Of a DNA stretch of 64,000 nucleotides, positions 49,578-64,000 are shown piece after piece. The notes beneath the pieces are model-generated. The model had not been told where the DNA came from. It did no database searches and saw only the letters and a program-made list of their open reading frames with translations. Made by a program: the position numbers and the translations under genes. The stretch's first letter is position 1. Every line of letters begins with the position of its first letter. Source of the DNA: Nitrospira sp. (GTDB lineage Bacteria; Nitrospirota; Nitrospiria; Nitrospirales; Nitrospiraceae); contig CP092079.1 of assembly GCA_022226955.1 (NCBI GenBank), positions 3,283,546-3,347,545 of the forward strand, read 5' to 3'.

Positions 49578-50687
49578 ATGGCCACCACGAAAGCCGACTC
49601 CACAAAAATTCACCGCACGTCGTCAAAAGTCGGCGCAACCAATGTCGCGATCATCGGCGCCGGGCGCGGAGGAACCGCGCTCATAGAAATCTTTGCGAAT
49701 GACCCGCTGGTCCAAATCGTAGGAATCGCCGACGTCAGCGCGCAAGCCCCCGGCGTCACACTCGCGAAACAGCTTCAGATTCCCGTCACACGGGACTACC
49801 GCAAACTTCTGGCGATGGAACAGGTTGACCTCGTGATCGACGTATCCGGCGATGCCGAGGTCTGGCAGTTCTTGCAAGACTTTCACCGAATGGGCGTCAC
49901 CATCATCGGCGGGGCCAGCGCGAAGTTCATGTGGGAACTCATCGGCGCGCGCATCCGCGCAACTGCGGAAATCGAAAACACGCTCAATAAATATCAGTCG
50001 CTGTACCGGCTATATGTCAAGGAAACCGGCACGGCGGTCACTGAAGAACGAACGCGCATCGCTTGCGAAATCCATGACGGTCTGGTCCAGAGCCTCGCCG
50101 GCGTCAATTTTAAGCTCGACTTATGCCAGCAGCTCGTACGCAAGGACCCCAAGGCCAGCCTCGTCACACTCAAAGAAAGCAAGGCGCAGCTGAAACTGGC
50201 GATTCAAGAAGCCCGTCAAGTTATCTTCAATTTGCGTCCGCTCCATTACGACAAAATGGAGCTGATTCCCGCGCTGACCAACTACCTCAAGTCCTACGAG
50301 ACTCAGGCGCGCATCAAAGCCCGCTTCACTGTAACCGGGGACGAACAGATCCTCTTTCCCCGCACGAAGATTTTCCTGTTCAGGATCATTCAGGAAGCCT
50401 TGAGCAACGTCCAAAAACATGCCAAGGCCAGTCGTGTGTCGATCCAGCTGGAGATCAATCTCGAAATGCTGCGCGTGACCATTTCAGATAACGGCATCGG
50501 TTTTGATATGGATGCCGTCCTGCGCGACCCCGACAAATGGGATCATTTCGGCATTCGCGGCATTATCGAGCGGGCGAAACTTGTCGGCGGCGAGGGGCAT
50601 ATCGATTCCAAGCAGGGGCGTGGCACGACGATCACCGTCGAAGTCCCCCTCACAAACAAGGAGACGAGCGAACATGGACAAGATTAA
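49578..50687 (+). CDS. Rossmann-domain sensor fused to a NarX-type histidine kinase
   Basis: A 369-residue soluble kinase. Residues about 22-130 form a dinucleotide-binding Rossmann unit: VAIIGAGRGGTALIEIF carries GxGxxG, an acidic residue follows at the second strand (VGIADVSA), and VDLVIDVSGD resembles Gfo/Idh or aspartate-semialdehyde-type dehydrogenases. A short helix leads to HisKA_3 with His166 in RTRIACEIHDGLVQSLAGV. HATPase_c (about 265-360) has IIQEALSNVQKHA, SDNGIGFD and HFGIRGIIERA. No dehydrogenase catalytic domain and no membrane segment are present. The likely signal is binding of NAD(P)(H) or another nucleotide, i.e. cytoplasmic redox state. The regulator gene overlaps its end by 14 bases. 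Confidence 0.88.
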   Translation: MATTKADSTKIHRTSSKVGATNVAIIGAGRGGTALIEIFANDPLVQIVGIADVSAQAPGVTLAKQLQIPVTRDYRKLLAMEQVDLVIDVSGDAEVWQFLQDFHRMGVTIIGGASAKFMWELIGARIRATAEIENTLNKYQSLYRLYVKETGTAVTEERTRIACEIHDGLVQSLAGVNFKLDLCQQLVRKDPKASLVTLKESKAQLKLAIQEARQVIFNLRPLHYDKMELIPALTNYLKSYETQARIKARFTVTGDEQILFPRTKIFLFRIIQEALSNVQKHAKASRVSIQLEINLEMLRVTISDNGIGFDMDAVLRDPDKWDHFGIRGIIERAKLVGGEGHIDSKQGRGTTITVEVPLTNKETSEHGQD

Positions 50688-51345
50688 GGTCCTCATTGCC
50701 GACGACCACCGTGTCGTTCGAGAAGGGCTCGCGGCCATTCTCAAGACCAAGGAGGATCTACACATCGTCGGCGAAGCACAAGACGGAATGGAAGCTGTCG
50801 AAAAAGCCAACGCGCTGGTCCCCGATGTCATTCTCATGGATGTGAGCATGCCCCGCATGGGCGGTATCGAAGCCACCAGGCAGATCAAACGCGAATTCCC
50901 GCATATCGGAATTGTCGCGCTGACAATGTACGAGGAACAGCAGTACATTTTCGATCTCGTTCGAGCCGGCGCCACCGGATATCTGCTGAAAGACTCCGAA
51001 TCTTCACAAATCGTCGCCGCAATTCGAGCCATCTACCGAGGCGAGTCATTAATCCACCCGTCCGTCGCCAGCAAGATTCTCGCGGAATTTTCACTCATGG
51101 CTCAAAAGAAGGGTAAAAAACCAGGCTGGGTGGAGCATGACCTCACTGAACGTGAAATCACCGTGCTCCGCTTGGTTGCCGATGGAAAAACCAATAAAGA
51201 AATCGCCAACGCATTGGATTTGAGTGAAAAGACCGTAAAAAATCATGTGCGCAACATTTTCCATAAACTACAGGTCTATGATCGAACCCAGGCAGCCATC
51301 CTTGCAATCAGAAAAGGATTGATTGAACTAGATCCACGACCTTGA
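50674..51345 (+). CDS. NarL/FixJ-family response regulator
   Basis: A 223-residue DNA-binding regulator paired with the Rossmann kinase. The receiver has DDH at 10-12 and phosphoacceptor Asp56 (VILMDVSMPRMGG). The LuxR-type helix-turn-helix is LTEREITVLRLVADGKTNKE followed by IANALDLSEKTVKNHVRNIF. The ATG at 50674 has AAGGAG about ten bases upstream and overlaps the kinase gene. Its 3' end may serve as the attachment site of the Tn7-like element: the first transposon repeat begins about 20 bases after the stop. Confidence 0.93.
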   Translation: MDKIKVLIADDHRVVREGLAAILKTKEDLHIVGEAQDGMEAVEKANALVPDVILMDVSMPRMGGIEATRQIKREFPHIGIVALTMYEEQQYIFDLVRAGATGYLLKDSESSQIVAAIRAIYRGESLIHPSVASKILAEFSLMAQKKGKKPGWVEHDLTEREITVLRLVADGKTNKEIANALDLSEKTVKNHVRNIFHKLQVYDRTQAAILAIRKGLIELDPRP

Positions 51346-51358
51346 ACGATCTGGTTTA

Positions 51359-51416
51359 TGACAAAATTTAAGGAAACTATTCTAAATTAAGGAAACTTCT
51401 TAAAATTAGGGAAACT
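51359..51416 (+). repeat. Tn7-like end: three repeats on a 19-base period
   Basis: The cores TTAAGGAAACT (51368-51378), TTAAGGAAACT (51387-51397) and TTAGGGAAACT (51406-51416) are spaced by exactly 19 bases, each preceded by an A/T-rich AAAT-type run. TGACA at 51359-51363 could be the terminal bases. Closely packed repeats at the tnsA-proximal end match TnsB binding sites in Tn7-type elements. The RR stop codon ends at 51345. Confidence 0.75.
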
Positions 51417-51534
51417 TTTACTATCCTGCGGACTCTACCTGTCTTTTCCGCCACTAGATCTTCTCGATAATCTCTGTAAAAGGTCTTGTACAGCCACGGC
51501 TTCCGCCGCACAGAAGTATATTTGCTGCCTTGCT

Positions 51535-52005
51535 ATGCCAGAAATTCGTCGCACGTTTGGTAAATATCTCCGAGAACTTCGACAAAGCCGAAGCCTCGGT
51601 CTCCGAGAAGTGTCCCGCCAGGTGATCCGACAACCAGGCGCCCGTGGCCTTTCACCTGCCTACCTGAGTCTCATAGAGCGCGGACATGTTGAAATTCCCC
51701 AACAGCATATTCTTCGTCACCTCAGCGTGGTTCTTGGAGTTGACGACAATCTGTTCGCCGCGATCGCCCAGGGGCTACGAATCGTAACTCTGTCAGATCT
51801 TCTAGAACAGTCATCGCTACATCATGCAATCCTAGTCGAGTTGCGATCTGGGACTGCCCGATACCCCGCAATCATTTCAGCTATTATCGAAATACTTCAG
51901 GCGTCTCCAGGGGGATTCCAGGGATTGCGCGCCATTCATTTTCAGGAAGGCAAGGTCGATGGGTTCTTATCCTTCGATCCGAAGTTGAGGCGCCGCCGCC
52001 GTTAA
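51535..52005 (+). CDS. Xre/Cro-family regulator at the transposon end
   Basis: A 156-residue protein. The N-terminal helix-turn-helix (about 5-75; FGKYLRELRQSRSLGLREVS, then LSPAYLSLIERGHVEIPQQH) is of the XRE type. The remaining 80 residues are mostly helical, with a basic tail (KLRRRRR). It lies between the end repeats and tnsA, as regulators do in several Tn7-like elements. A perfect 9-base inverted repeat overlapping the tnsA promoter follows 50 bases after its stop, and it is the obvious candidate binder. The ATG at 51535 has no strong ribosome site. Confidence 0.8.
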   Translation: MPEIRRTFGKYLRELRQSRSLGLREVSRQVIRQPGARGLSPAYLSLIERGHVEIPQQHILRHLSVVLGVDDNLFAAIAQGLRIVTLSDLLEQSSLHHAILVELRSGTARYPAIISAIIEILQASPGGFQGLRAIHFQEGKVDGFLSFDPKLRRRRR

Positions 52006-52094: not shown

Positions 52095-52958
52095 ATGAGA
52101 TTAAAAGTCCACATAACGCAGGAACTCATCGACAAATTCCTTCGCCAGGGCCGAGGGCAAGGAGAGCTTGGGCGCTATTTTCCATGGTGGACCGTTTTTG
52201 ATATCGCTTCCAAAGGATTGCGGACACGGGTCCGAGGCATCAAGACAGGGCGGACGCATCATTTCCTGAGCCTCCTTGAACTAACGTTTTTCTTCCTGGC
52301 CGAGTTTAGCGATTCAGTGCTCGATATCCGCGAGCAGTATCCGCTCCTGCCCCAAACCGAGACCCTCGCCATAGCAAGTCAGTTAGGCATTAAACACTCT
52401 GTCGACCGCCTCACACACTTTCCCATAGTCATGACCACCGATTTCCTCCTCACCGTGCGACACGGCGCTGCAGATGTTCTCCAAGCCTGGTCTGTAAAAT
52501 ACCTCAAAGACCTTCGCAATCGACGCACACTTGATAAAGAAGAAGTGCAACGACGGTGGTGGGAGTCCAAACATATTCCCTGGAAGCTCTTTACTGAGAA
52601 GGATGTGACGCCAGCCCAGGCGCATAACGTTCGGTTTCTCTTCCCATATAAGAAGTCGCGTGCCCTCAAAGGAATACCGAGAGACATCATTCGCCATGTC
52701 TCGGATTATCTCCAAGATAATGTTCGTCCGAATGTGCTTCTGAGGGACCTGTGTGCCGACTATGAACAACGCTACACGGTTGAGAAAGGAACCGGGCTTC
52801 TTGTCGCCCGGCATTTGTTGGCTAATGGACAATGGCCTATCGACATTTCGCAAAAACTCTCTCCTCATGAACCGTTGCGATTCCGCCCTCAACCTCTAAT
52901 GTCCGGGAGACTGCTTCCCCATGGAGCTTCTCAACAATTCATTACTAGCTTGGCGTGA
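52095..52958 (+). CDS. tnsA: TnsA-like transposase endonuclease subunit
   Basis: A 287-residue TnsA homologue that cuts the 5' transposon strands, which together with TnsB gives cut-and-paste movement. The restriction-enzyme-like fold has its catalytic triad visible: Glu62 (LLELTFFFL), Asp116 (VMTTDFLLT) and Lys135 (AWSVKYLKDL). Their spacing matches Tn7 TnsA (Glu63, Asp114, Lys132). The C-terminal helical domain (about 165-280) that binds TnsC is present. The ATG at 52095 is 12 bases after the operator. The stop falls 38 bases inside tnsB. All catalytic residues are intact, so it should be active. Confidence 0.92.
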   Translation: MRLKVHITQELIDKFLRQGRGQGELGRYFPWWTVFDIASKGLRTRVRGIKTGRTHHFLSLLELTFFFLAEFSDSVLDIREQYPLLPQTETLAIASQLGIKHSVDRLTHFPIVMTTDFLLTVRHGAADVLQAWSVKYLKDLRNRRTLDKEEVQRRWWESKHIPWKLFTEKDVTPAQAHNVRFLFPYKKSRALKGIPRDIIRHVSDYLQDNVRPNVLLRDLCADYEQRYTVEKGTGLLVARHLLANGQWPIDISQKLSPHEPLRFRPQPLMSGRLLPHGASQQFITSLA

Positions 52959-55071
52959 TCCGTCCAACATCGAGGAGGTGCAGTCGATCGAGCGGATCCT
53001 CTACTTCGCCTCTAACGGTGAAGAGGCTTGGATGATCAATCTGAGCAAGAAGAAAGGATTGCCCCATTCTCGTCCCATGGCTCAAGTCCGCACGGCCATC
53101 CAGACCGGTGAGGCGACGATCGTCACCGAGGACCCTTACGCATACCTTCGGACAAGTGATGCAGAGCTTTCACACGAGAAGTGCCAGGTGCGGGACCATT
53201 TGCATGCCATCCTTGGTCCGTATTTGGAGACCTATAGGGAGGCCCTGCTGCAGAAGTCCCGCCGCGGGGCGATTATTTTGAAGATCACGCAGGAAACGAA
53301 CTGGAAGAAAAAGAAGATTTACAAGTATCTGCGACGCTATTGGCAATCCGGTCAACTCCGCAATGCCTTTTTACCTGACTGGCACCTGCGGGGTGGGAAA
53401 AACGTCACGAAAACGTGCACGCAGGGTAAGAAGCGAGGACGGCCCAAGCAGGTCGTCCAAACGAATCGAACAACCGTGGTCGGAATCAACGTCGATAAGG
53501 ACATGTATCAACGTCTCAAACGAGGGGTCGATGACTGGTATCTCAAGACCGATCTCTCCTTCGCGGCTGCCTTTCACAAGATTACGACCACCCAATTCAT
53601 TGACGGACTCGAGTTTGTGAATGGTGTTTGGGTCCCACGGCCGTGGTCATCCGACAGACTGCCGACACAACGCCAAGCCTGGTACGTCTATGAAAAGGAG
53701 TTTCTTCATAAACCGGAGGCGCGTAAGCGCAAAATTGGTTCCCATCGCTGGAATCTCGAAGAACGTGAACTTACCGGGGATACCGCGACCTTGGCACCCT
53801 GGCCCGGTAGTTTGTACCAAATTGATGCCACGGTTGGGGATATTTACTTGCGGAGCCAATTAGATCTGAATCGGATCATTGGACGACCTGTCATTTACTT
53901 AGTGGTCGATGTCTTTAGCCGCATGATTGTCGGATTCGCCGTATTGATGGAAGGACCCAGCTGGATGGGCGCACTGCAGGCTCTGGAAAGCGCCTTCATG
54001 GACAAAGTGGCCTTCTGTAAATCCTTGGGGGTCGATATCCAGCCGGGCGCTTGGCCTTCTGCTGGTCTTCCCGAGGCGATCACCGCGGATAATGGGGAAT
54101 TCTTGGGCTACAACGCTACCAGCCTGAACAGCCTTGATATCCTGCTGCATAACACGCCACCCTACCGCCCAGATTGGAAATTTCTCGTGGAGTGCTATTT
54201 CCGGACTGTGCAGGAGAAACTCCGCTGGGTCCCGGGTTATCTCCATCCAACGCGAGAACGGGGAGACAAAGACACCCGCCTCGATGGTGTACTGACACTC
54301 AAAGATCTGCGCCAACTGCTGATTTGGTGCATTATCCAGTACAACAACCACCGCTTGTTGGAGAACTATCCCGTCACCAAATGCATGATCCGCGACGATC
54401 TCGATCTCTATCCATCGGAGATCTGGCGTTGGGGCCTAAGCGCCAATAGTTCTCGGCTTCGCTGGGAAGACCCCAAGCAAATTCACGCTATTCTGCTCCC
54501 TCGCAGCAAAGCGAGAGTCACGCGCCACGGCCTGAAGTTCAAGAATCTGTACTACTCCTGTGAAACCGCTCGGAACGCCCACTGGTTTTCCCAGGCGTCG
54601 GCAAAAGAATGGGATGTGGAAGTCTCCTATGATCCACGGAGCCCCGAGGTGCTCTATCTTGTGAAAGAGGACGACAGGATGGAGGCGTGCACACTGTTGG
54701 ACCGGATGCATGAAGACACATTTCGCAGCCATGACTGGTATGAGGTCGAAGACTACCTCGCGATGCGGGCAATGAAACAATCCGAGGCTAAACTCACGGA
54801 AGTGCATCGAGCCGTCGTCCCGCGGACCATGCAGGAAGCGATAGTCCGCGCAGCCCAGGAGAATCTGAAAGAAGTGCAGGTACCACAGAGCAAACGGGCA
54901 GCCCTACAGGGCGTCAAAGACAACAAGCGGACGGAGCGCGAGTATGAGCGCGCTCTGGCCACTGGCCAAGACCCCGTCGCACCTACTGTGGAGGAGGACG
55001 CAGAAGAATACATTGGCATCGATGAACCGGCCGAGTTGCTGCGCACGGCCGCCGTAGTGAGGACAGCATGA
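52921..55071 (+). CDS. tnsB: TnsB-like DDE transposase
   Basis: A 716-residue Mu/Tn7-type transposase. The N-terminal third holds helix-turn-helix DNA-binding domains for the end repeats (QETNWKKKKIYKYLRRYWQS region). The rve core has Asp302 (YQIDATVGD), Asp390 (ITADNGEF) and Glu424 (WKFLVECYFR), i.e. a DD(34)E arrangement. A beta-barrel (about 505-560) and a charged C-terminal tail (about 590-716), used for TnsC contact, follow. The ATG overlaps tnsA by 38 bases with GGGAGA upstream. The catalytic triad is intact. A gap of 116 bases follows before tnsC, without a clear terminator. Confidence 0.94.
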   Translation: MELLNNSLLAWRDPSNIEEVQSIERILYFASNGEEAWMINLSKKKGLPHSRPMAQVRTAIQTGEATIVTEDPYAYLRTSDAELSHEKCQVRDHLHAILGPYLETYREALLQKSRRGAIILKITQETNWKKKKIYKYLRRYWQSGQLRNAFLPDWHLRGGKNVTKTCTQGKKRGRPKQVVQTNRTTVVGINVDKDMYQRLKRGVDDWYLKTDLSFAAAFHKITTTQFIDGLEFVNGVWVPRPWSSDRLPTQRQAWYVYEKEFLHKPEARKRKIGSHRWNLEERELTGDTATLAPWPGSLYQIDATVGDIYLRSQLDLNRIIGRPVIYLVVDVFSRMIVGFAVLMEGPSWMGALQALESAFMDKVAFCKSLGVDIQPGAWPSAGLPEAITADNGEFLGYNATSLNSLDILLHNTPPYRPDWKFLVECYFRTVQEKLRWVPGYLHPTRERGDKDTRLDGVLTLKDLRQLLIWCIIQYNNHRLLENYPVTKCMIRDDLDLYPSEIWRWGLSANSSRLRWEDPKQIHAILLPRSKARVTRHGLKFKNLYYSCETARNAHWFSQASAKEWDVEVSYDPRSPEVLYLVKEDDRMEACTLLDRMHEDTFRSHDWYEVEDYLAMRAMKQSEAKLTEVHRAVVPRTMQEAIVRAAQENLKEVQVPQSKRAALQGVKDNKRTEREYERALATGQDPVAPTVEEDAEEYIGIDEPAELLRTAAVVRTA

Positions 55072-55187: not shown

Positions 55188-56813
55188 ATGGCCAATCCCG
55201 TCAAACGGAGCAAGAGAGCGAAACCAAACCTGAGCGCGCTCATCCGTCAAGGCGCCCAGATTGCCGCCACCTATGACACCAACCAAGAGGTGCCGCTCTA
55301 CCGGGGCATCCCGACACTGGAAGCCCTAGGGCCTATCCTGTCAAAGGAAGAGGTCATCTCCCGGCTTGCCTCGACACCCGTCTATGATGAACAAGAGCGG
55401 TTGCTCAAACCGGAAACCCTTCTCCACGTAGTTCAAGCTGCATTGCTAAACTGGTTCAGGCCCTTGGCGATGCACATCGATCTCCAACAGCGCCTGGATC
55501 GAGTCATTCGCGGCAGCTTGCCGTATCGCAATCCATTGACAGTAGGCTATCACCGCAAGTGTTTCGAGCACATCGATCAGTTTCACGACTATATAAAGCG
55601 GCCTGCGTCGGCTCCATACCAGCGCACGACGGCCCTGGGCTTCCACTTTACTGCCCCCAGTGGCGCAGGCAAAACTACCTCGATCGAACGAATCCTCATG
55701 GAGCTCTATCCTCAGCGTATCCTCCATACTGAGTACAAGGGCAAACCGTTCCATTTTGATCAACTGGTCTGGCTCCATCTCGATTGTCCTGGCAATGGTT
55801 CGTTGCGATCATTGCTCATTCAATTCTTGCAAGCCGTGGATGCTATCATCGGGAAAACAAAGCTCACGAGCGGCGAAGAAGTAGGTTATTACGAGCTGTA
55901 CGGAGGAGATCGGGCGACGGTGGACTCACTGATTTCGGCTGTAGCGACCGTAGCCGCGAATCACTGTCTCTCTGTGCTCATCATCGATGAAATCCAACAC
56001 CTTCTTCATGCCGATGGCGACGGGGCTGACAAAGTCCTGAACTATCTGGTGACACTAGTGAACACTATCGGCCTCCCGGTCATTTTAGTCGGGACACCGC
56101 GTGCGAAACATGTCCTCTCCCAACAGGCGAAACAAATTCGCCGAGGGACAGGCCAAGGGGAACTCGAATGGCACCGTTTGGACCGTGCAAGTCTCAGCTA
56201 TTCGCTGATGACGGAAGAGATGTGGACCTATCAATATACATTGAAGCCAGTGACGCTGACCGACCGTATCAAGGATGTCCTCTTTGAGGAAACACAGGGT
56301 ATCCCAGACTATATGATCAAAGCCTATATGATGGCCCAATGGCGATCCATTACGACGGGCAAGCCGCTTTCTGTCGCTATGCTGCGATCGGTCGCCAAGG
56401 ACGGCTTTGCTTCGGCCAGACCCATTCTGCGCGCCCTCCGGCACAATAATTTTGCCGGCCTCAAGAATCTTGATGATGTACGTCCCCCCAACGTAGATCC
56501 CATTCTGCAAGCCGCTGAACAACAAATGAACGAAGAGCTCTCCACTGCGGCTGGTCTTAAAGCCATGCAGGCCAGTAAAGATACAGACAAGGAGACCTGC
56601 GCCACGACTGGCACTGAAACAACACCGCAACAGCACACAGCCCCTCCCACAGCGGCAACCGAAGCAACAGCTTATAGGGATCTGGCTTCGGATCCGCCGA
56701 CATTGAGGGAACTGCACCAGCAAGCGGAAGCGTCAGGGACAGATTTCTATGATCTCCTCAGAAAGAACAATGTCGTGAACCGCCCGATGGAGTCAGGGCC
56801 ATCTCCCCTGTAA
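55188..56813 (+). CDS. tnsC: TnsC-like AAA+ regulator ATPase
   Basis: A 541-residue AAA+ ATPase that links target selectors to the TnsAB transposase. The Walker A is APSGAGKTTS (Lys162), and the Walker B is VLIIDEIQHLL (Asp267-Glu268). Sensor I is near VILVGTPRAK. It is at the long end of the family: an N-terminal extension of about 125 residues and a low-complexity Thr/Ala/Gln-rich segment (about 455-510) precede a short helical tail. The ATG has AGGAGG six bases upstream, the best ribosome site in the element. It is followed after 13 bases by tniQ. All ATPase motifs are intact. Confidence 0.94.
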   Translation: MANPVKRSKRAKPNLSALIRQGAQIAATYDTNQEVPLYRGIPTLEALGPILSKEEVISRLASTPVYDEQERLLKPETLLHVVQAALLNWFRPLAMHIDLQQRLDRVIRGSLPYRNPLTVGYHRKCFEHIDQFHDYIKRPASAPYQRTTALGFHFTAPSGAGKTTSIERILMELYPQRILHTEYKGKPFHFDQLVWLHLDCPGNGSLRSLLIQFLQAVDAIIGKTKLTSGEEVGYYELYGGDRATVDSLISAVATVAANHCLSVLIIDEIQHLLHADGDGADKVLNYLVTLVNTIGLPVILVGTPRAKHVLSQQAKQIRRGTGQGELEWHRLDRASLSYSLMTEEMWTYQYTLKPVTLTDRIKDVLFEETQGIPDYMIKAYMMAQWRSITTGKPLSVAMLRSVAKDGFASARPILRALRHNNFAGLKNLDDVRPPNVDPILQAAEQQMNEELSTAAGLKAMQASKDTDKETCATTGTETTPQQHTAPPTAATEATAYRDLASDPPTLRELHQQAEASGTDFYDLLRKNNVVNRPMESGPSPL

Positions 56814-56826
56814 GCCTGGAGTGACC

Positions 56827-57618
56827 ATGCTTTCGATGTTTCCGGACATCTATCCCGATGAATTACTCGTCAGCGTATATGCCCGATTCCATGTACGCCT
56901 ACGAGCCTTCCCCCAAAAGACCGCTCAGTTGCTATTTGGCAGTACCACGCTTTGCATCAAAGGAGATCTCCCTCATCGCTTATCTCATCTTGCCACTATG
57001 CTGCCTCCAGGGTATCGACCAAGCATTCGCGAAATGATCGTGCACCACACACTTCTTCCAATCTATGAACGCTTCAGCCTGTGTCCTCGGTGTGAAGATC
57101 ATATGATGGGAATGACAGGGTATTCCTTTGAACGATCCAGTATACGCCTCATCCGCACCGTGCCGACTCTCCGATACTGCCCAATGTGCTGCAAGGAGGA
57201 CCACGACCAGGCAGGAGAATACTATTGGCATCGAAACCATCAGATTCCCGGTATACCAGTTTGTTTGATCCATCAGGTTTTCCTAGAATGCAGCGATATA
57301 CCTCTACTGAAGATCCCCGCAACGGATTTAATGTCGATCGCAGCAGAACTTTCGCTCCAGCCCGTTGCACCGAGACAGGTCAATATCAACAATGGGCATC
57401 ATAGGACAATCGTAAATATTGCATGCGAGCTGGTGGAGTTTCTTTCAGCGGCAGGTTCTTCACATGCTCGAACTAGCAAATCTATCATTAGGCTGTTAAA
57501 TCAATCCGAGTACCTCACCGAACGTTATAGTCCCAAGCCACCTAACCCCGTTGCAAAACGGCCCAAGACATTTGCTAGACAGGAGGGGACACGTCACTCT
57601 GCTTCATTGCGACAATGA
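56827..57618 (+). CDS. tniQ: Short TniQ-family target-selection protein
   Basis: A 263-residue TniQ-domain protein. The N-terminal signature is IYPDELLVSVYARFHVRLRA. Two zinc-binding groups are visible: FSLCPRCEDH and RYCPMCCKEDH followed by YYWHRNHQIPGIPVCLIHQ. The conserved W-H-R-x-H-Q-x-P-G-x-x-V-C-x-x-H run is a hallmark of TniQ/TnsD. It lacks the long C-terminal DNA-recognition region seen in the next gene, which resembles TniQ proteins that partner with another targeting module. The ATG at 56827 has GGAG five bases upstream. Its stop overlaps the tnsD start (ATGA). Confidence 0.9.
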   Translation: MLSMFPDIYPDELLVSVYARFHVRLRAFPQKTAQLLFGSTTLCIKGDLPHRLSHLATMLPPGYRPSIREMIVHHTLLPIYERFSLCPRCEDHMMGMTGYSFERSSIRLIRTVPTLRYCPMCCKEDHDQAGEYYWHRNHQIPGIPVCLIHQVFLECSDIPLLKIPATDLMSIAAELSLQPVAPRQVNINNGHHRTIVNIACELVEFLSAAGSSHARTSKSIIRLLNQSEYLTERYSPKPPNPVAKRPKTFARQEGTRHSASLRQ

Positions 57619-59429
57619 ATGAAACAATGCGCACCACGACTTACCGCAGCTGCATTGTGCTCCTAACCATGGCCATTTATCTCCCAGCTCCATATCCAGA
57701 TGAAGTGCTCTATAGCATCCTTGCACGCCATCGGCTTCGCTTAGGCCAAACAACGACTACTGTTTTAATGCGCCAACTATTTGGGTCACCATCAGTGCAT
57801 GCTGCCGTCGCTTTTCCCACTCACCTCAGCCATCTGTCGTCGACCCTTCATCCCCACGCGAATATGACGTTGGACACGCTGATCATGCGGTTCACTCTGT
57901 TTCCATATTACGCGCCCTTTTTCGCAAGGGACCATCGCCTAGCTCTCTATCAGCGAATGGCTGCTGATCACCATGGCATGGAAAGAGCCGTGCCGATGAC
58001 CTGGCTCCGCAGGAACAGCGTAACGGTTTCTGAGATGCTTCGGTATTGCCCAGTTTGTGCAGCTCACGAACGGCGAGAACTCGGCGAAGCGTATTGGCAT
58101 CGTTTACACCAGATACCTGGCGTGGAAGTCTGTGCCGTGCATGAAGTGTGGCTTGAATCGACTTGCGCCCCCGCTAGAGCACTTGGGGGCTGGCACCACT
58201 TTCTATCTGCAGAATCGGCGATCTTAAGTACCGCCGTTAGACATCTGAGTGCTTATGAACCAGGTCGGAATTCAATGATACAACTTACTCATGATGCAGC
58301 CTGGCTGCTCGAACAGAATCCCAGTTCTTCCGATCCGGAGGCACTATGGAGCCGATACCGATGCCTACTCAGGGAACGAGGTCTTAGCAGCTATCGTGGG
58401 AAGGTCTCGCCTAGCAAATTACTCGCTCTCATCCACCGCCTTTTCCCTGTCACATTCCTCGCACGCATTGAAGGCAATTCCGGACGACTAACATCCGGAC
58501 GAGGGATTTTCAGTCTCATCCGCAAGCCACGAGGAGGACTTCCTCCGCTATATCACCTTCTCATGATGCAGGTTTTGGATAAAAGTGCTGAAGAGTTTTT
58601 TCAACTGCCTGCGAAACCTCATGACTTTGGCATCGGGCCCTGGCCCTGTTTGAACAGATTAGCACCTCACTACAAAGCAATGACGGTGATGACGTATTCA
58701 GTTCATGTGCAGAAGGATGGAGGACGCCCAGTCGCAACCTTCTCCTGCCCCTGTGGATTTGTCTATTCTCGCATTGGACCAGATTGGGGACCGCTTGCCC
58801 GATTCAGTTATACGCGTATTGAACGGTATGGTCCGTTGTGGGATCGGAAATTCTCACGTCTTTGGTCGACGCCCGAGAATACGCTCTCGTTCATCTCCCA
58901 GACGGTAGGGATGGCAGAAAAGAATCTCTCAAAACATGCAGCACGCCTGAAGTTACCGGTTTGGAAGAGACCGACTGGACATTCGGCTATACCTAGTCGC
59001 AAACGATCTTGGCGCGGACGGATGGTGCGGCCATTATCCGCCACCATTCGTAGAGTGAGACAGGAGTGGCGTAATTTGTCAGCACAAAGCGGCCGATCAA
59101 TTCATGAGGAGCGAGAAGAGCGCCGACTCTACCACTGGCTGTTTCGACATGATCATGACTGGCTCATCGCTCAACCTCATCGATCGAGAATCACTCGTCA
59201 GGCTGGATCACACACGCAGGTCGACTGGAATGAAAGAGATCAGTTTCTTGCCCATGTTCTTGAAAGACAACCCTTACTTCCAGCTCTGTCAGGACATCAC
59301 CGCATCTCAATAAACAGGCTCATCAGACAATCTGGATACCGACACCTCATTCAACCTAATTTACACCGCCTTCCCGCGACTCGTGCCACACTCAATAGAA
59401 TCGTCACCTCTCATATGCCAGAAGACTAG
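57615..59429 (+). CDS. tnsD: TnsD-like long TniQ-family site selector
   Basis: A 604-residue TniQ/TnsD protein. The N terminus (YLPAPYPDEVLYSILARHRL) and zinc group (RYCPVCAAHERRELGEAYWH, then RLHQIPGVEVCAVHEVW) match the short TniQ just upstream. A second Cys pair (FSCPCGFVYSR) lies near residue 380. The last 200 residues are Arg/Lys/Trp-rich and probably read a fixed attachment sequence, as Tn7 TnsD reads the 3' end of glmS. The start could be 57615 (overlapping tniQ) or 57669 (closer to the conserved start). The insertion site suggests the response-regulator 3' end as target. That is inference from position only. Confidence 0.88.
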   Translation: MNETMRTTTYRSCIVLLTMAIYLPAPYPDEVLYSILARHRLRLGQTTTTVLMRQLFGSPSVHAAVAFPTHLSHLSSTLHPHANMTLDTLIMRFTLFPYYAPFFARDHRLALYQRMAADHHGMERAVPMTWLRRNSVTVSEMLRYCPVCAAHERRELGEAYWHRLHQIPGVEVCAVHEVWLESTCAPARALGGWHHFLSAESAILSTAVRHLSAYEPGRNSMIQLTHDAAWLLEQNPSSSDPEALWSRYRCLLRERGLSSYRGKVSPSKLLALIHRLFPVTFLARIEGNSGRLTSGRGIFSLIRKPRGGLPPLYHLLMMQVLDKSAEEFFQLPAKPHDFGIGPWPCLNRLAPHYKAMTVMTYSVHVQKDGGRPVATFSCPCGFVYSRIGPDWGPLARFSYTRIERYGPLWDRKFSRLWSTPENTLSFISQTVGMAEKNLSKHAARLKLPVWKRPTGHSAIPSRKRSWRGRMVRPLSATIRRVRQEWRNLSAQSGRSIHEEREERRLYHWLFRHDHDWLIAQPHRSRITRQAGSHTQVDWNERDQFLAHVLERQPLLPALSGHHRISINRLIRQSGYRHLIQPNLHRLPATRATLNRIVTSHMPED

Positions 59430-59447
59430 AAACGAACGGAGGATCGC

Positions 59448-59987
59448 ATGACGATGGGTATGATGCAGGGGTATCGCCAAGCAGTGCAAAAGTTTAGTGG
59501 CATTAAGAAACTCACTGACGAGGCCATGCAAGATTGGCTCGATATTGCTTTGCCAAAACTGCCGCCACGCACACAACAGATGTTCGTCGATGAGGTCTTC
59601 TTCCTGACAACAGGATTGCCGCCCTCGTATGCGGAGAGTGAGTGCCCTCAACCGCCAAAAAGTGGTAGAGCATCGCGTGCCAAAACCAAAACTATGATGA
59701 TCGACGCGCAAGCGACACAGGAGGCCTTTGATCTACAGCAGCGGGTAAGTGACGTATTGGGTGGCGAAGTCGCAGCAACGGCATGGCTGACCCGTAAACA
59801 TCGGGCGCTCAAGAACAAAACTCCGCTTTCCATTCTTGGAACCTCGGCCGGAAACGCTCGCGTGGAGCAGCTCTTGAAGAGGACTAAACGATCTCCACTT
59901 CCCGTAGACGCGCCACTTCAGAAAAAGAAAACCGTTGCCAGTCGAAAGGCTCGCTCCGTGAGCACGATCCGGAAAGCGGAAGATTGA
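59448..59987 (+). CDS. DUF2384 (MbcA/ParS/Xre toxin-binding domain) protein
   Basis: A 179-residue protein. Residues about 90-145 (LQQRVSDVLGGEVAATAWLT, then RKHRALKNKTPLSILGTSAG, then NARVEQLL) match the DUF2384 domain of antitoxins paired with RES-type toxins. The N-terminal 65 residues (QGYRQAVQKFSGIKKLTDEA) are uncharacterised, and the C-terminal 30 are Lys/Arg-rich. A strong ribosome site (GGAGG) lies five bases upstream of the ATG. No RES or other toxin gene is next to it. It follows tnsD by 18 bases and may belong to the transposition operon, or be orphan cargo. Confidence 0.75.
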   Translation: MTMGMMQGYRQAVQKFSGIKKLTDEAMQDWLDIALPKLPPRTQQMFVDEVFFLTTGLPPSYAESECPQPPKSGRASRAKTKTMMIDAQATQEAFDLQQRVSDVLGGEVAATAWLTRKHRALKNKTPLSILGTSAGNARVEQLLKRTKRSPLPVDAPLQKKKTVASRKARSVSTIRKAED

Positions 59988-60106
59988 GGCTGGGTAGTTG
60001 ATCAGCTTATGGAGCACCGTCCTTCGGACGATCCTGTGGATGTCTCTAGATTCCATTCGGTCTGGCGAGAGAGGTCTCATCCCACAAGGATGAAGACTTC
60101 ATTGAG

Positions 60107-60286
60107 ATGAGCAGACAACAAGACAGCCCTCGTAACCTTACTCCGGCCATTATTCATGTCCGCCTCTCCGCTGAGCCCCTTTCACCCCAAAAGCAGGAAC
60201 AGGTACGCCAAGAGGTCCAGGAGATCTTGAAGCGGCGTCAACACTATCTAGACCTGGCTCGCAGGCAACACCACTCTAATGATTAA
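60107..60286 (+). CDS. Small protein, unknown function (copy A)
   Basis: A 59-residue frame MSRQQDSPRNLTPAIIHVRL continuing SAEPLSPQKQEQVRQEVQEI and ending in a basic, His-rich helix. The middle resembles a short helix-rich dimerisation unit. A second copy, related across more than 40 residues, lies at 60560-60766. The preservation of TPAII, LS, EPLS/DPLS and KQE between copies argues for past selection. The ribosome site is weak (TTGAG). It was too short to stand out on size alone. Function unknown. Confidence 0.5.
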   Translation: MSRQQDSPRNLTPAIIHVRLSAEPLSPQKQEQVRQEVQEILKRRQHYLDLARRQHHSND

Positions 60287-60299
60287 ATAGGGCTTGTCG

Positions 60300-60530
60300 T
60301 TAAGCTGGCCCGTGGGGTTTCTTTGTTTCCACGAACGCAATAGTTTCTAGGCAGGGCACTGAGCTTGCGTGGATCTCAGCTGAAACAAACTCGGCGCTGA
60401 TCGGATCAATCTCAGTGGCGTCTAGGTGTTCCAATGCTGTGAGGATTTCCTGGAGGGAATGACCGGCACGCGGTTCAAGTATCACATGGAGCCGTGAGGG
60501 CACCTCGGGTTGTTGAGAGGATTTGTACAT
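60300..60530 (-). CDS. Small hypothetical protein
   Basis: A 76-residue minus-strand frame between the two small related plus-strand frames. The product (RLHVILEPRAGHSLQEILTA, then LEHLDATEIDPISAEFVSAE) has a regular beta-alpha-beta pattern and ends EIHASSVPCLETIAFVETKK, which looks like a folded domain rather than random sequence. I do not recognise the family. No ribosome site precedes the ATG at 60530, so the start is uncertain. Confidence 0.4.
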   Translation of the reverse strand: MYKSSQQPEVPSRLHVILEPRAGHSLQEILTALEHLDATEIDPISAEFVSAEIHASSVPCLETIAFVETKKPHGPA

Positions 60531-60559
60531 ACTGGGATCATACCAAAACGAGGGTGTCG

Positions 60560-60766
60560 ATGAGCAGATAACTCGAGAACCCGCACAGCATCACCCCGGC
60601 GATTATCCCTGTTATGCTCTCTTCTGACCCGCTCTCATCAGAAAAGCAGGAGCGCGTGTGTCAGGACATCCAGGAACTCAAGCAGGGGTGGCAACACCAC
60701 CAGGACGAGATCCGACAGCAGGCTACGTTAACTAATGAGTCGGATGACGTCAACCGGATCACGTAA
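60560..60766 (+). pseudogene. Small protein copy B with in-frame stop at codon 4
   Basis: The frame from ATG at 60560 reads MSR, then TAA, then continues openly as LENPHSITPAIIPVMLSSDP and LSSEKQERVCQDIQELKQGW to a TAA at 60764. It matches copy A (60107) in position of MSR, TPAII, LS-DPLS and KQE-RV. Copy A has CAA where copy B has TAA. Either it is inactive or translation starts at the internal ATG at 60614. Its end overlaps the nuclease remnant on the other strand. Confidence 0.5.
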
Positions 60767-61012
60767 GGCGTGGGGGGGTCGTTTAGCCTTCCGCCATTCC
60801 CATGACGGAATGGGCTGAGCCTCAGCCCAGAGCCCCATTCGCTTCTCCCCTGCGTCTGTTTCGAGCTCCTCTAACACCGCATTTCTCGGTGCATATTTGC
60901 AATACCACCAACACATTCCTACTTTCACGAGTTGCTGTTTGAGATTGTCTCCATCCGGTAGGACGACATCTGCGAGGGTCAGATCATAGCGATCCTTTCC
61001 GAATGTCCGCAT
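60728..61012 (-). pseudogene. Thermonuclease (SNase-family) 3' remnant
   Basis: The 94 readable residues match the C-terminal half of staphylococcal-nuclease-type proteins: RTFGKDRYDLTLADVVLPDG and LVKVGMCWWYCKYAPRNAVL, then the MGLWAEAQPIPSWEWRK tail. Full-length relatives are about 150 residues, with a signal peptide and DGDT active-site start. Upstream in the same frame I can follow only STLTLGKDVT and then sequence that no longer resembles the family. The Arg/Glu catalytic region is therefore lost. It was most likely truncated by recombination near 61050. Confidence 0.65.
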
Positions 61013-61178
61013 TGTGACATCTTTCCCAAGAGTGAGGGTAGATATGCCCTTTGTGGCACCCTTTCCTACAGTGCGTTGGTGCCCACATTCTGGCCGCCGC
61101 TCGTGCTTTGGAGGCGAGAGCAGCGGCCCATTTCGTTATGGCCATTGAGGAGGTGGGTTTAGCGCTAGCTTTCAGGCG

Positions 61179-62246
61179 TTACTTTGGGAAAGACGCCGGC
61201 GGCAGAACATGTTGCCACCCTTCTCCATTTAGAGCAGTTAAAAATGCTTCAAGATCCTCTCGTTCTTCGTCCGAAAGAAATAGTGAACCGATCGTATTGT
61301 CTTGAAACGGATTCTTTACTCCCCCATGGTTATAGAAGTTGATGACCTCCCTCAAGGTGTTAAAGCGACCGTCGTGCATATATGGGGCCGTACGGGAGAT
61401 CTCTCGCAAGGTAGGTGTTTTAAATGCTCCAATATCCTCAGGCTGATGGGTTATGGCATATCGTCCTAAATCCACGTGACTCGATTCCCAACCAATTCCC
61501 AAATTATGAAATTGTTCATCTGTATAATTTGGTCCCGCGTGACATCGTATACAACGGCCCTTTCCTTGAAAAACACGAAATCCCCGTTGGGCTGACTGCG
61601 TCAAAGCGTTGAGGTCGACACCGTAATCGAAACGGTCTACAGGGCTATTGCCGGACAATATCGTTCGTTGAAAATTTGCGAGAGCGATCCCAATATTTTC
61701 TATAGTGATGTTTTCGCTAAATACTTCCATGAATAACTTGCGGTAGCCCCGAATGGACCTGAGCGTCTTCACTACGTCATCGTAAACGAGAAACCCATGC
61801 TCTACGGAGTTTACTAACGGACCGAGGGATTGTTCTTCCAGCGTGGCTGCGCGCCCATCCCAAAACAGCTGCTTGCCAAAGACACGATTGATGATCGTCG
61901 GAGCATTACGGTCGCCAGTCAAACCTCTGACCCCTCTTGAGACCGGGCGAGAGTCCGTAAACGCCACTGTAGCGATGTGGCAACTTGCGCAAGCAATTGA
62001 TTGATCGATGGAGAGCCGCTTGTCGAAAAACAACAGTCGTCCGAGCTGGATCTGCCCTTCGGTCAATACGTTTCCAGCAAGAAGACGGTCATTGGGATTC
62101 TCGAGGCCTAAGAGGGAGTTCAGAACTACGGGAGTCCGTTTGGAAGGAGGTTTCTCCTGGGTGCCGGCTGTCGCATATGATGCCCCCCCGAATTGAATGA
62201 CCGCCCACGTGCTGATCGTCAGTATCGAGCCCAAGACGACTCTCAT
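61179..62246 (-). CDS. Di-haem cytochrome c peroxidase (MauG/CcpA family)
   Basis: A 355-residue periplasmic di-haem enzyme. A signal segment (residues 1-27) is followed by haem-binding CASCH (86-90) and CIRCH (232-236). The region FWDGRAATLEEQSLGPLVN and the GLTGDRNAPTIIN segment are typical of bacterial peroxidases that reduce hydrogen peroxide with electrons from small c-type cytochromes. FKTPTLREISRTAPYMHDGR with its Met/His ligand region is near 290. The ATG at 62246 has AAGGAG eight bases upstream. A preceding in-frame segment to 62303 is not supported. It shares strand with the P460-type gene but is separated by about 600 bases and a terminator. Confidence 0.92.
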   Translation of the reverse strand: MRVVLGSILTISTWAVIQFGGASYATAGTQEKPPSKRTPVVLNSLLGLENPNDRLLAGNVLTEGQIQLGRLLFFDKRLSIDQSIACASCHIATVAFTDSRPVSRGVRGLTGDRNAPTIINRVFGKQLFWDGRAATLEEQSLGPLVNSVEHGFLVYDDVVKTLRSIRGYRKLFMEVFSENITIENIGIALANFQRTILSGNSPVDRFDYGVDLNALTQSAQRGFRVFQGKGRCIRCHAGPNYTDEQFHNLGIGWESSHVDLGRYAITHQPEDIGAFKTPTLREISRTAPYMHDGRFNTLREVINFYNHGGVKNPFQDNTIGSLFLSDEEREDLEAFLTALNGEGWQHVLPPASFPK

Positions 62247-62823
62247 GTCTATGCTCCTTCCGGTACTTCTCCGCGTTGATGGAAGACAGACGTTTTTACC
62301 CAAACCCCATTTACAACTCGCTGGGCAATCGTTTCGTACGCAGATTTGTACTGTATCAAGCAGTGATGTGTCGTCACCAAGATACGATTCAACCGAAGGC
62401 TGAACGCCACGTATCGTGTTGGGTCTTATGGTGCTGTAATGTCTCTCGGGTGATTAACTATATGATGCGCGGGAATCCGATCGACGTACAATCCCGGGAT
62501 ATACGCTCTCTTAGGTGCTGGCAACAATGATTTTCCGTTGTACGTATGTGGGCTTGTGGGTTGGGTGCAGACCAGAATTCCTTCTATTGTGAAGCGAGCC
62601 TGCCGTTCAAGAGTCCAAATCGCCACGGAAAGGGCATTGACCAATTAGGGCATTCATAGAGTGTTTCTGAACCTGGTTTATTGGAAAGGTCTAACGATGA
62701 TCCACGTTAGGACCCTCAAACGATTCTTGTCTTTCTAGAAATTTCTGCCATCAAACCGTACGCGTGCAGGCATCTTGGCGTGTCATTCATCGAAGAACTT
62801 CATGAGAGCGCCGTTAAATAAAT
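62247..62823. other. Intergenic stretch without a supported gene
   Basis: About 577 bases between the peroxidase start and the terminator of the P460-type gene. It should contain the peroxidase promoter on the minus strand, but I could not choose hexamers. A minus-strand frame at 62426-62644 (72 codons) resembles nothing and lacks a ribosome site. No repeat of the transposon end type is seen. Confidence 0.45.
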
Positions 62824-62856
62824 CCGCGCCTGAACTCCGTAGAAGTTCAGGCGCGG
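62824..62856 (-). terminator. Rho-independent terminator of the P460-type gene
   Basis: Perfect 13-base arms CCGCGCCTGAACT and AGTTCAGGCGCGG enclose a seven-base loop. On the minus strand the stem is followed by ATTTATTTAA. It lies 16 bases after the gene's stop. Confidence 0.85.
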
Positions 62857-62872
62857 GGCTCCGAACAACGCT

Positions 62873-63487
62873 CTACTTTCCTGCCGCTGCGATGGCTGCT
62901 CGAATCACAGGGTAGTGCTTCGAAAATACAAAGTCGGTGGCATTGGCCTCATGACATCGGTTGCACTCGTCGACCTTATTCGGTAAGGATACTTCCTTGA
63001 GCGGATAGGAATGTCCAAAGCTGAAATACCCCCAGTGTCCTGGGTCCTTTGGAAAGCGCTTGGTATCCAGGACCGATACCTCAAGGCCAATAAATTCTCC
63101 TTGAAAATATCCAGCCCCGCTGCTGGCTTCTTTCTGCCCCACGCTGACCAATTCTTTCACCAACACAGTCCCGTCACGGTACTTCCCGGTCTTTTCCAAA
63201 TAGGCAAAGCTTTCGGGGTCCATATACACATTGTGAAACTCCGGGAAGTTGGCTTTCCCATCATTCATATCATTCGGCGTAACCGGCGTGCCGACATAAA
63301 CCCACTTCCGGTAGGCCGCTGGCGAGAGCCTCTTCATCTTACCTTCTGGCGTATACTCGACCGTTTTCGAGCCTCCATTCCCCTCTCCAGCTTGAGCGAC
63401 TACACCGACACTCCCCGAATACCAAAGCAATCCTCCGAGTAACGCAGCAATCACTAACGTGCTCTTCCGTTTTGACATGCTGTACAT
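62873..63487 (-). CDS. Cytochrome P460-family c-type haem protein
   Basis: A 204-residue exported haem protein. The signal peptide (LVIAALLGGLLWYSGSVGVV, cleavage near AQA-G) is followed by a P460-type domain: YRKWVYVGTPVTPND, FHNVYMDPESFAYLEKTGKY and DGTVLVKELV. The haem motif CNRCH (175-179) sits near the C terminus before DFVFSKHYPVIRA. Lys111 in DGTVLVKEL is in the region where P460 proteins carry the cross-linking lysine, but I did not align it. P460 cytochromes oxidise hydroxylamine or detoxify nitric oxide. A role in reactive-nitrogen handling fits a nitrite oxidiser. The ATG at 63487 has AAGGGGGG upstream; 63478 is an alternative. Confidence 0.82.
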   Translation of the reverse strand: MYSMSKRKSTLVIAALLGGLLWYSGSVGVVAQAGEGNGGSKTVEYTPEGKMKRLSPAAYRKWVYVGTPVTPNDMNDGKANFPEFHNVYMDPESFAYLEKTGKYRDGTVLVKELVSVGQKEASSGAGYFQGEFIGLEVSVLDTKRFPKDPGHWGYFSFGHSYPLKEVSLPNKVDECNRCHEANATDFVFSKHYPVIRAAIAAAGK

Positions 63488-63569
63488 GCGGCCCCCCTTA
63501 AATGTTTGTAGGTAGAAGACAAGTAAACCAGCTGCAAACTGTTTGTAACAAATTACGGGGTAGCCATCA

Positions 63570-63583
63570 GTCATGTGTATGAC
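63570..63583. promoter_or_regulatory. Palindrome upstream of the P460-type gene
   Basis: Perfect inverted repeat GTCAT-GTGT-ATGAC, with the four-base spacer usual for Crp/Fnr-family operators. It lies about 80 bases upstream of the P460-type ATG and between it and a divergent Crp/Fnr-type regulator gene. Confidence 0.45.
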
Positions 63584-63728
63584 AAATGATTAATTACTTT
63601 TTATGTAGAGTAACCTGCACGGTCAGGGACGCGGCATTTCAAGATATGAATGGACGCGCCTGCTCAGAGAGATTGTGAGTTGAAGCGGAAGCTAACGAGT
63701 AGCTATTTCTGGCGGCATAGAATATCTC

Positions 63729-63745
63729 AATAGTTACAAACTATT
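63729..63745. promoter_or_regulatory. Palindrome upstream of the Crp/Fnr regulator gene
   Basis: Perfect 7-base arms AATAGTT and AACTATT around ACA. It is about 60 bases before the regulator's ATG at 63807, a position suited to self-regulation. The rest of the 63488-63806 gap is AT-rich and holds no supported gene. Confidence 0.4.
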
Positions 63746-63806
63746 ACCGTAAAGCGTATCATTCGCTCGACTAGCTGACCAATCGACTAACTCAGGGTGT
63801 GCTCAT

Positions 63807-64000
63807 ATGGATCTTCCTCAAGCCCTTGCTAAGCGTACACTTTCAATCTGGAAGCAATTGTGCCCTTTTCGGCGGCACACCCTCAAGCACGGAGCGGAGA
63901 TACACCTGTCGTCGACCAACATGAAATTCTATATCGTCGATAAGGGCTTTGTGCGACTCACGTCCATTCAATTAGATGGGAAACGGGTAACAAGAATGAT
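63807..64000 (+). CDS. Crp/Fnr-family transcription regulator (3' end outside window)
   Basis: The first 64 residues of a cyclic-nucleotide-binding-fold regulator. LCPFRRHTLKHGAEIHLSST and FYIVDKGFVRLTSIQLDGKR match the first strands of the beta-barrel (G-x-x-I/L...Y-x-V-x-x-G-x-V-x-L). The DNA-binding half lies beyond the window. It is divergent from the P460-type gene, and two palindromes lie between them. Crp/Fnr proteins beside nitrogen-oxide haem genes often respond to nitric oxide or oxygen. That is inference from context. The ATG at 63807 has AGGG about ten bases upstream. Confidence 0.75.
   Translation, partial: MDLPQALAKRTLSIWKQLCPFRRHTLKHGAEIHLSSTNMKFYIVDKGFVRLTSIQLDGKRVTRM

Follow-up and report, generated by a model that had tools for sequence, protein, structure and literature searches.

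The Tn7-like element described here carries no CRISPR system and probably reaches its targets by two routes, with TnsD serving for homing and a short TniQ serving a second route. The stretch of DNA analyzed, termed the window (64,000 nucleotides), covers positions 3283546 to 3347545 of a 3.635-Mb single-contig Nitrospira genome. Its transposon genes run in the order xre-tnsA-tnsB-tnsC-tniQ-tnsD-MbcA/ParS-like gene, all on the + strand. By Pfam and motif alignment, the core proteins of a Tn7-like element are present, namely TnsA, the DDE transposase TnsB, the AAA+ ATPase TnsC, and a TniQ-domain selector. The features are as follows, in window coordinates.

50674 to 51345, + strand: LuxR-type response-regulator gene (Pfam Response_reg and GerE); homing (attachment) takes place at its 3' end.
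51352 to 51420, + strand: left element end, TGGTTTATGAC..., which carries three repeats resembling TnsB sites and shows a jump in identity to genome G014.
51535 to 52005, + strand: Xre-type HTH regulator gene (Pfam HTH_31); a similar ORF lies at the same place in Nitrospira moscoviensis.
52095 to 52958, + strand: tnsA (Pfam TnsA N and C domains; E, D, and K motifs conserved).
52921 to 55071, + strand: tnsB, DDE transposase (Pfam Mu-transpos_C; second D and E of DDE align with relatives).
55188 to 56813, + strand: tnsC, AAA+ ATPase (Pfam AAA_22 and TniB; Walker A GAGKT, Walker B LIIDEIQ).
56821 to 57618, + strand: tniQ, short selector (Pfam TniQ; zinc ligands C120, C123, C148, and H151).
57615 to 59429, + strand: tnsD, long selector of 604 amino acids, predicted homing protein (Pfam TniQ and TnsD).
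59111 to 59429, + strand: 3' tail of tnsD shared with two other elements, the identity to them rising abruptly near residue 500.
59448 to 59987, + strand: gene for a 179-amino-acid protein with an Xre/MbcA/ParS C-terminal domain (Pfam PF09722).
60700 to 64000, no strand assigned: start of the cargo, which runs past the window end (90 to 97% DNA identity with the N. moscoviensis element cargo; Pfam).

The original prediction described a 263-residue TniQ in tandem with a 604-residue TnsD, overlapping by four bases. Both reading frames were confirmed. TniQ is 265 amino acids long from the GTG at 56821 or 263 from the first ATG at 56827, while tnsD starts at the ATG at 57615, leaving the overlap at 57615 to 57618. 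The Pfam TniQ domain scored 64.6 bits in TniQ and 75.5 bits in TnsD (cut-off, 27), and the Pfam TnsD domain was confined to the long protein (219.8 bits). These two are the sole TniQ-domain genes in the 3.635-Mb genome. With tandem proteins of 265 and 604 amino acids that are 30% identical, the element falls in the dual tniQ-tnsD class, defined by a short TniQ and a TnsD of >400 amino acids.

The original prediction implied that a Cas-free pair of this kind is surprising. That implication did not survive a reading of the literature; dual tniQ-tnsD loci without CRISPR are frequent and polyphyletic, with 998 dual loci counted (Faure 2023, PMC10293859). Like the members of that class, the window element has its short TniQ and long TnsD without a Cas effector. 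It differs in its attachment gene, which is new as far as the searched papers show, and in a second route known here just from a relative's naturally occurring off-site copy. What is new is the surrounding biology, i.e., the home site, the off-site copy in the relative, and a junction inside tnsD.

The left end at 51352 lies six bases past the stop codon of the response-regulator gene, and its repeats have the core GGAAACT at 51372, 51391, and 51410. The response-regulator gene is present in 56 of the 57 relatives searched. A comparison of insertion sites, which the original prediction had proposed, placed Tn7-type ends 5 to 6 bp past the same stop codon in four genomes, namely in the window, in G014 and G032, and in copy A of N. 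moscoviensis, which has an additional copy off this site. A constant spacing from the 3' end of a conserved gene is what one expects of Tn7-like insertion. At this site, the G014 end is of the window type and the G032 end of the N. moscoviensis type, and G021 has an apparent degenerate remnant. We considered the element of G420 as a further occupant and rejected it, as the response-regulator gene there is followed by other sequence and the element lies elsewhere. In the literature searched, which included few subscription journals, we found no paper in which a Tn7-like element attaches at a response-regulator gene.

DNA identity between the window and G014 is 0.755 to 0.80 in the flanks and 0.94 to 1.00 inside the element; the switch falls at 51351, and a value of 0.98 is reached at the element start. 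Because the G014 element is near identical and sits at the same site while the flanks are only about 78% identical, homing appears to have been recent. These alignments are most simply read as recent, independent insertions of near-identical elements into the same site in two species.

The element spans 51352 to at least 89753, counted from the window start, and we did not find its right end. Resemblance to the cargo of N. moscoviensis stops at an insertion sequence and an N gap in locus L024 (IS3-like insertion at about 89.8 to 91.0 kb; gap at 91145 to 91244, both from the window start), and the right end may be lost or hidden there. The window thus shows a left end with three repeats, while two ends with 5-bp duplications were seen in the N. 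moscoviensis relative only.

TnsA, TnsB, and TnsC had been described as catalytically intact, and alignment with relatives agrees, covering for TnsB the second D and the E of DDE. The broader statement that the system looks functional is supported for the machinery. The motifs are intact, and dN/dS values of 0.10 to 0.13 for tnsA, tnsB, and tnsC against the near-identical G014 copy indicate purifying selection; the window element itself, with its right end not found, is putatively mobile.

The nearest named relative among the compared genomes is N. moscoviensis NSP M-1 (NZ_CP011801.1). Its element has the same xre-tnsABC-tniQ-tnsD-MbcA-like order, attachment gene, and cargo. It differs in its proteins (TnsA and TnsB about 50%, TnsC 42%, TniQ 33% [378 amino acids], and TnsD 63% identical) and in being present as two copies, each with apparently two IS21 copies inside. 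This element was earlier remarked upon for its IS21 pair and cytochrome P460 cargo (Benler 2021, PMC8649781). The cargo of the window element is 90 to 97% identical in DNA to that of N. moscoviensis over long stretches. Within the window it comprises an SNase fragment, a di-haem cytochrome c peroxidase, a cytochrome P460, and an ORF starting at 63807. The cargo proteins scanned include three cytochromes P460, a di-haem peroxidase, catalase, Dyp peroxidase, SelO, AlkA, 6-O-methylguanine DNA methyltransferase, PqiA, multicopper oxidases, and others. As a side observation, the cargo (window 61179 to 64000, L023, and L024) is rich in oxidative-stress and nitrogen-oxide functions.

The two N. moscoviensis copies are identical (100%) over a 42,261-bp match, the element itself being 42,259 bp with ends TGT...ACA. 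Copy A, at the response-regulator gene, is flanked by the duplication ACTCC. The second copy is flanked by AGAAC and has a ppx-like gene on one side and an OmpR-type regulator on the other. When the second site was compared with the home site, the best local score was 8 (shuffled mean, 8.0), whereas the window's own flank scored 53. Since two identical copies with their own 5-bp duplications occupy dissimilar sites, this element group also inserts off its home site; a second target route exists in the group. We rejected the idea that TnsD had recognized a look-alike site, given that the two sites show no similarity. An empty off-site locus was not found in relatives, where the neighboring genes are not adjacent. 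The off-site insertion seen is one only, in a relative whose 378-amino-acid TniQ is about 33% identical to that of the window. N. moscoviensis also has, at 4.024 to 4.033 Mb (L018), a third Tn7-like element with two long TnsD proteins (696 and 585 amino acids) that adjoins a different gene.

We believe that the short TniQ most likely serves this second route. It could instead modulate TnsD homing as a competitor or co-factor at TnsC, with the off-site copy arising from an occasional TnsD or TnsABC error. There is precedent in the I-D CAST, where TniQ strongly lowers TnsD homing (PMC10293859), and the 4-base overlap makes translational coupling of tniQ and tnsD probable. A single known off-site copy would also fit such an error. 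However, the off-site insertion site bears no resemblance at all to the homing site, and the short TniQs of described systems are target selectors that act with a partner. We consider modulation unlikely.

In described CRISPR-associated Tn7 elements, as the original prediction noted, the short TniQ acts with Cascade. The original prediction that the window has no Cas gene or CRISPR array holds, and more widely than stated. No Cas genes were found in the element among the proteins scanned with Pfam, and the whole genome gave no family match to Cas1, Cas5, or Cas7 (the three families searched genome-wide). No CRISPR-like regularly spaced repeats were present in 164 kb from the window start or in related elements. 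This includes the downstream DNA in which Cas genes and arrays had been thought worth seeking, where about 100 kb beyond the window held no arrays. The gene lists of related elements showed no Cas genes either; N. moscoviensis and G420 do carry Cas genes, far from their elements. Since Cas1, Cas5, and Cas7 are missing from the genome, a CRISPR effector of the tested families would be unavailable to TniQ. The element thus has neither the Cas effector nor the CRISPR array of a CAST. Type I-B, I-D, and some I-F3 CASTs likewise divide two routes between a short TniQ and a TnsD, but they have Cas genes and arrays, and the window TniQ is not recognizably like theirs.

The two selectors had been taken to be distinct, and the tree supports this. 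The short TniQs of the window, N. moscoviensis, and G420 (266 amino acids, in the same slot) form a supported clade (98/90) apart from the clade of their TnsDs (100/99). The window TniQ is about 32 to 34% identical to the other two. A recent truncated copy of tnsD is ruled out by the 30% identity to the adjacent TnsD and by this separate clade. TniQ is the fastest diverging of the core proteins compared (30 to 34% identity versus 42 to 63%), and its end branches in the tree are about three times as long as those of TnsD. This divergence could instead reflect relaxed constraint. The zinc ligands C120, C123, C148, and H151 are invariant in the alignment. In a first tree, the short TniQs grouped weakly with long TnsD-like proteins of the same slot from G024 and the third N. 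moscoviensis element. Dual pairs arise repeatedly via duplication (PMC10293859). It is plausible, though not proven, that the short TniQ began as an old duplicate of the TnsD-like kind and later lost the C-terminal part.

In PDB sequence and profile searches with TniQ, Tn7 TnsD was the only convincing match. An AlphaFold model of TniQ (mean pLDDT, 60) matched Tn7 TnsD in its TnsC complex (E value, 8.5e-5; probability, 1.00), and matches to the TniQs of I-B, V-K, and I-F3 CASTs had probabilities of 0.25 or less. The PADLOC I-B TniQ model scored 65.1 bits with the window TniQ and 68.4 bits with the window TnsD, and the I-F TniQ model matched neither. By sequence and by this low-confidence fold model, the short TniQ is thus not recognizably CAST-like, and its nearest solved relative appears to be Tn7 TnsD.

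The original prediction allowed that the short TniQ may be a relic, and these results bear on one reading of this, namely descent from a CRISPR-associated ancestor whose Cas genes were lost. The short-plus-long architecture does resemble I-B, I-D, and Tn7017-type CASTs, and the Tn7017 branch is mostly without Cascade. A clade with the single I-F3 TniQ in the tree (plasmid pS44-1; no I-B or I-D sequences were included) was not rejected (AU P, 0.39), but the I-F3 branch is extremely long, so the test is powerless and the tree cannot place that protein. The Cas genes that such an ancestor would have used are missing from the element, from the genome (Cas1, Cas5, and Cas7), and from the gene lists of related elements. 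Moreover, the PDB sequence matches included no CAST TniQ, the CAST folds matched far more weakly than Tn7 TnsD, the I-F model found nothing, and the I-B model fit TnsD about as well as TniQ. We regard a CRISPR relic as very improbable.

The partner might instead be a non-CRISPR protein encoded by the element. TnsE_C had no match in the genome, although control genomes gave no positive either. No TnsF-like or integrase-like domain, and no further selector, was recognized among the cargo proteins scanned, and no viral contigs with TnsD were found. In Tn6022-like elements, TniQ has TnsF as its partner and insertion is in comM; the window element has a different attachment gene and does not belong with them. 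Candidates by analogy with TniQ-TnsF of Tn6022 would be the Xre regulator or the MbcA/ParS-like protein, in which we found no HTH. The MbcA/ParS-like gene is the one gene beyond tnsBC, tniQ, and tnsD found in all three short-TniQ elements, and a small TniQ has been proposed as the hallmark of an additional selector (PMC10293859). In a Tn7-like element on Pseudomonas putida plasmid pKF715A (L107), an Xre/MbcA/ParS-domain gene adjoins two tniQ genes, but the similarity of its product to the window protein is not detectable. The MbcA/ParS-like gene is also not tied to TniQ, as it occurs beside other mobile cores away from TniQ/TnsD pairs (G056, G201, and G184). Together with the lack of TnsF-like or integrase domains in the scanned cargo, this makes an element-encoded partner rather improbable, even more so than modulation.

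A junction lies inside tnsD. Between the window, N. moscoviensis, and G420, identity at third codon positions of tnsD is mostly 0.2 to 0.5 up to residue 500 and 0.75 to 1.0 after it, in all three pairs. The junction sequences show three diverged cores (window, L017 of N. moscoviensis, and L057 of G420) meeting one shared tail at the same bases. This tail (window 59111 to 60500) holds the end of tnsD, the MbcA/ParS-like gene, which follows tnsD in N. moscoviensis and G420 as well, and about 500 bp. Against N. moscoviensis, the DNA is nearly identical from the junction into the cargo; against G420, the shared stretch is about 1.4 kb at 86%. Because third codon positions match past the junction, recombination, not protein-level selection, accounts for the pattern. 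We take it as direct evidence from sequence that transposition cores and cargo modules recombine inside tnsD. Sharing this tail is not enough to determine the site, since the G420 element is not at the response-regulator gene.

The MbcA/ParS-like gene or the tail also lies beside other mobile cores in L120 (G056), L121 (G201), and L123 (G208), which include a ParA-type module, apparent tyrosine recombinases, and an apparent TniA/TniB/TniQ-type set. Together with the DNA that follows it, the gene may constitute a shared island module. Just downstream of the MbcA/ParS-like gene, window 60106 to 60290 and 60559 to 60750 form an imperfect direct repeat with small ORF-like sequence, and the third N. 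moscoviensis element holds sequence resembling this repeat. G024 (L021, 252531 to 253172, contig C12) encodes a 213-amino-acid protein with an apparent ribbon-helix-helix N terminus and a piece like the TnsD C-terminal module, 41% identical over residues 534 to 597 of the window TnsD.

Taken together, we propose that TnsD would recognize the response-regulator gene end and then call TnsC, and TnsAB would insert the element with its tnsA side adjoining that gene. The short TniQ, probably descended from an old TnsD-like duplicate minus its C-terminal domains, would retain a TnsC-binding TniQ domain and a zinc finger without the long DNA-binding part and would act as the selector for the second route. 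Since it cannot recognize DNA as TnsD does, it should need another factor, which could be a host protein, a DNA structure, or TnsC alone. The element has TnsABC and TnsD in common with E. coli Tn7; like Tn7, it lies directly behind the 3' end of a conserved gene with the tnsA side adjoining, and it would have a two-route lifestyle. The 5-bp duplication typical of Tn7 was seen in N. moscoviensis. The window element differs from Tn7 in using a response-regulator gene where Tn7 uses glmS and in having a second TniQ-domain protein and no TnsE match. A bolder joint proposal is that the short TniQ directs a CRISPR-free, TnsE-free second route via a host factor or DNA structure and that these elements stay functional by repeated core swaps at one fixed point in tnsD onto the shared tail; we offer it tentatively, as a possibility that is less likely than not.

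The role of small TniQs in CRISPR-free Tn7-like elements is a question from the 2023 survey (PMC10293859), and N. moscoviensis offers a tractable case, with a complete named genome, identical home and off-site copies, and a defined home site. Recombination between core and cargo inside tnsD speaks to a contribution left open by the Benler survey (PMC8649781). For nitrite oxidizers, these elements are a route for exchanging many genes at once, in a block that covers oxidative stress and cytochrome P460.
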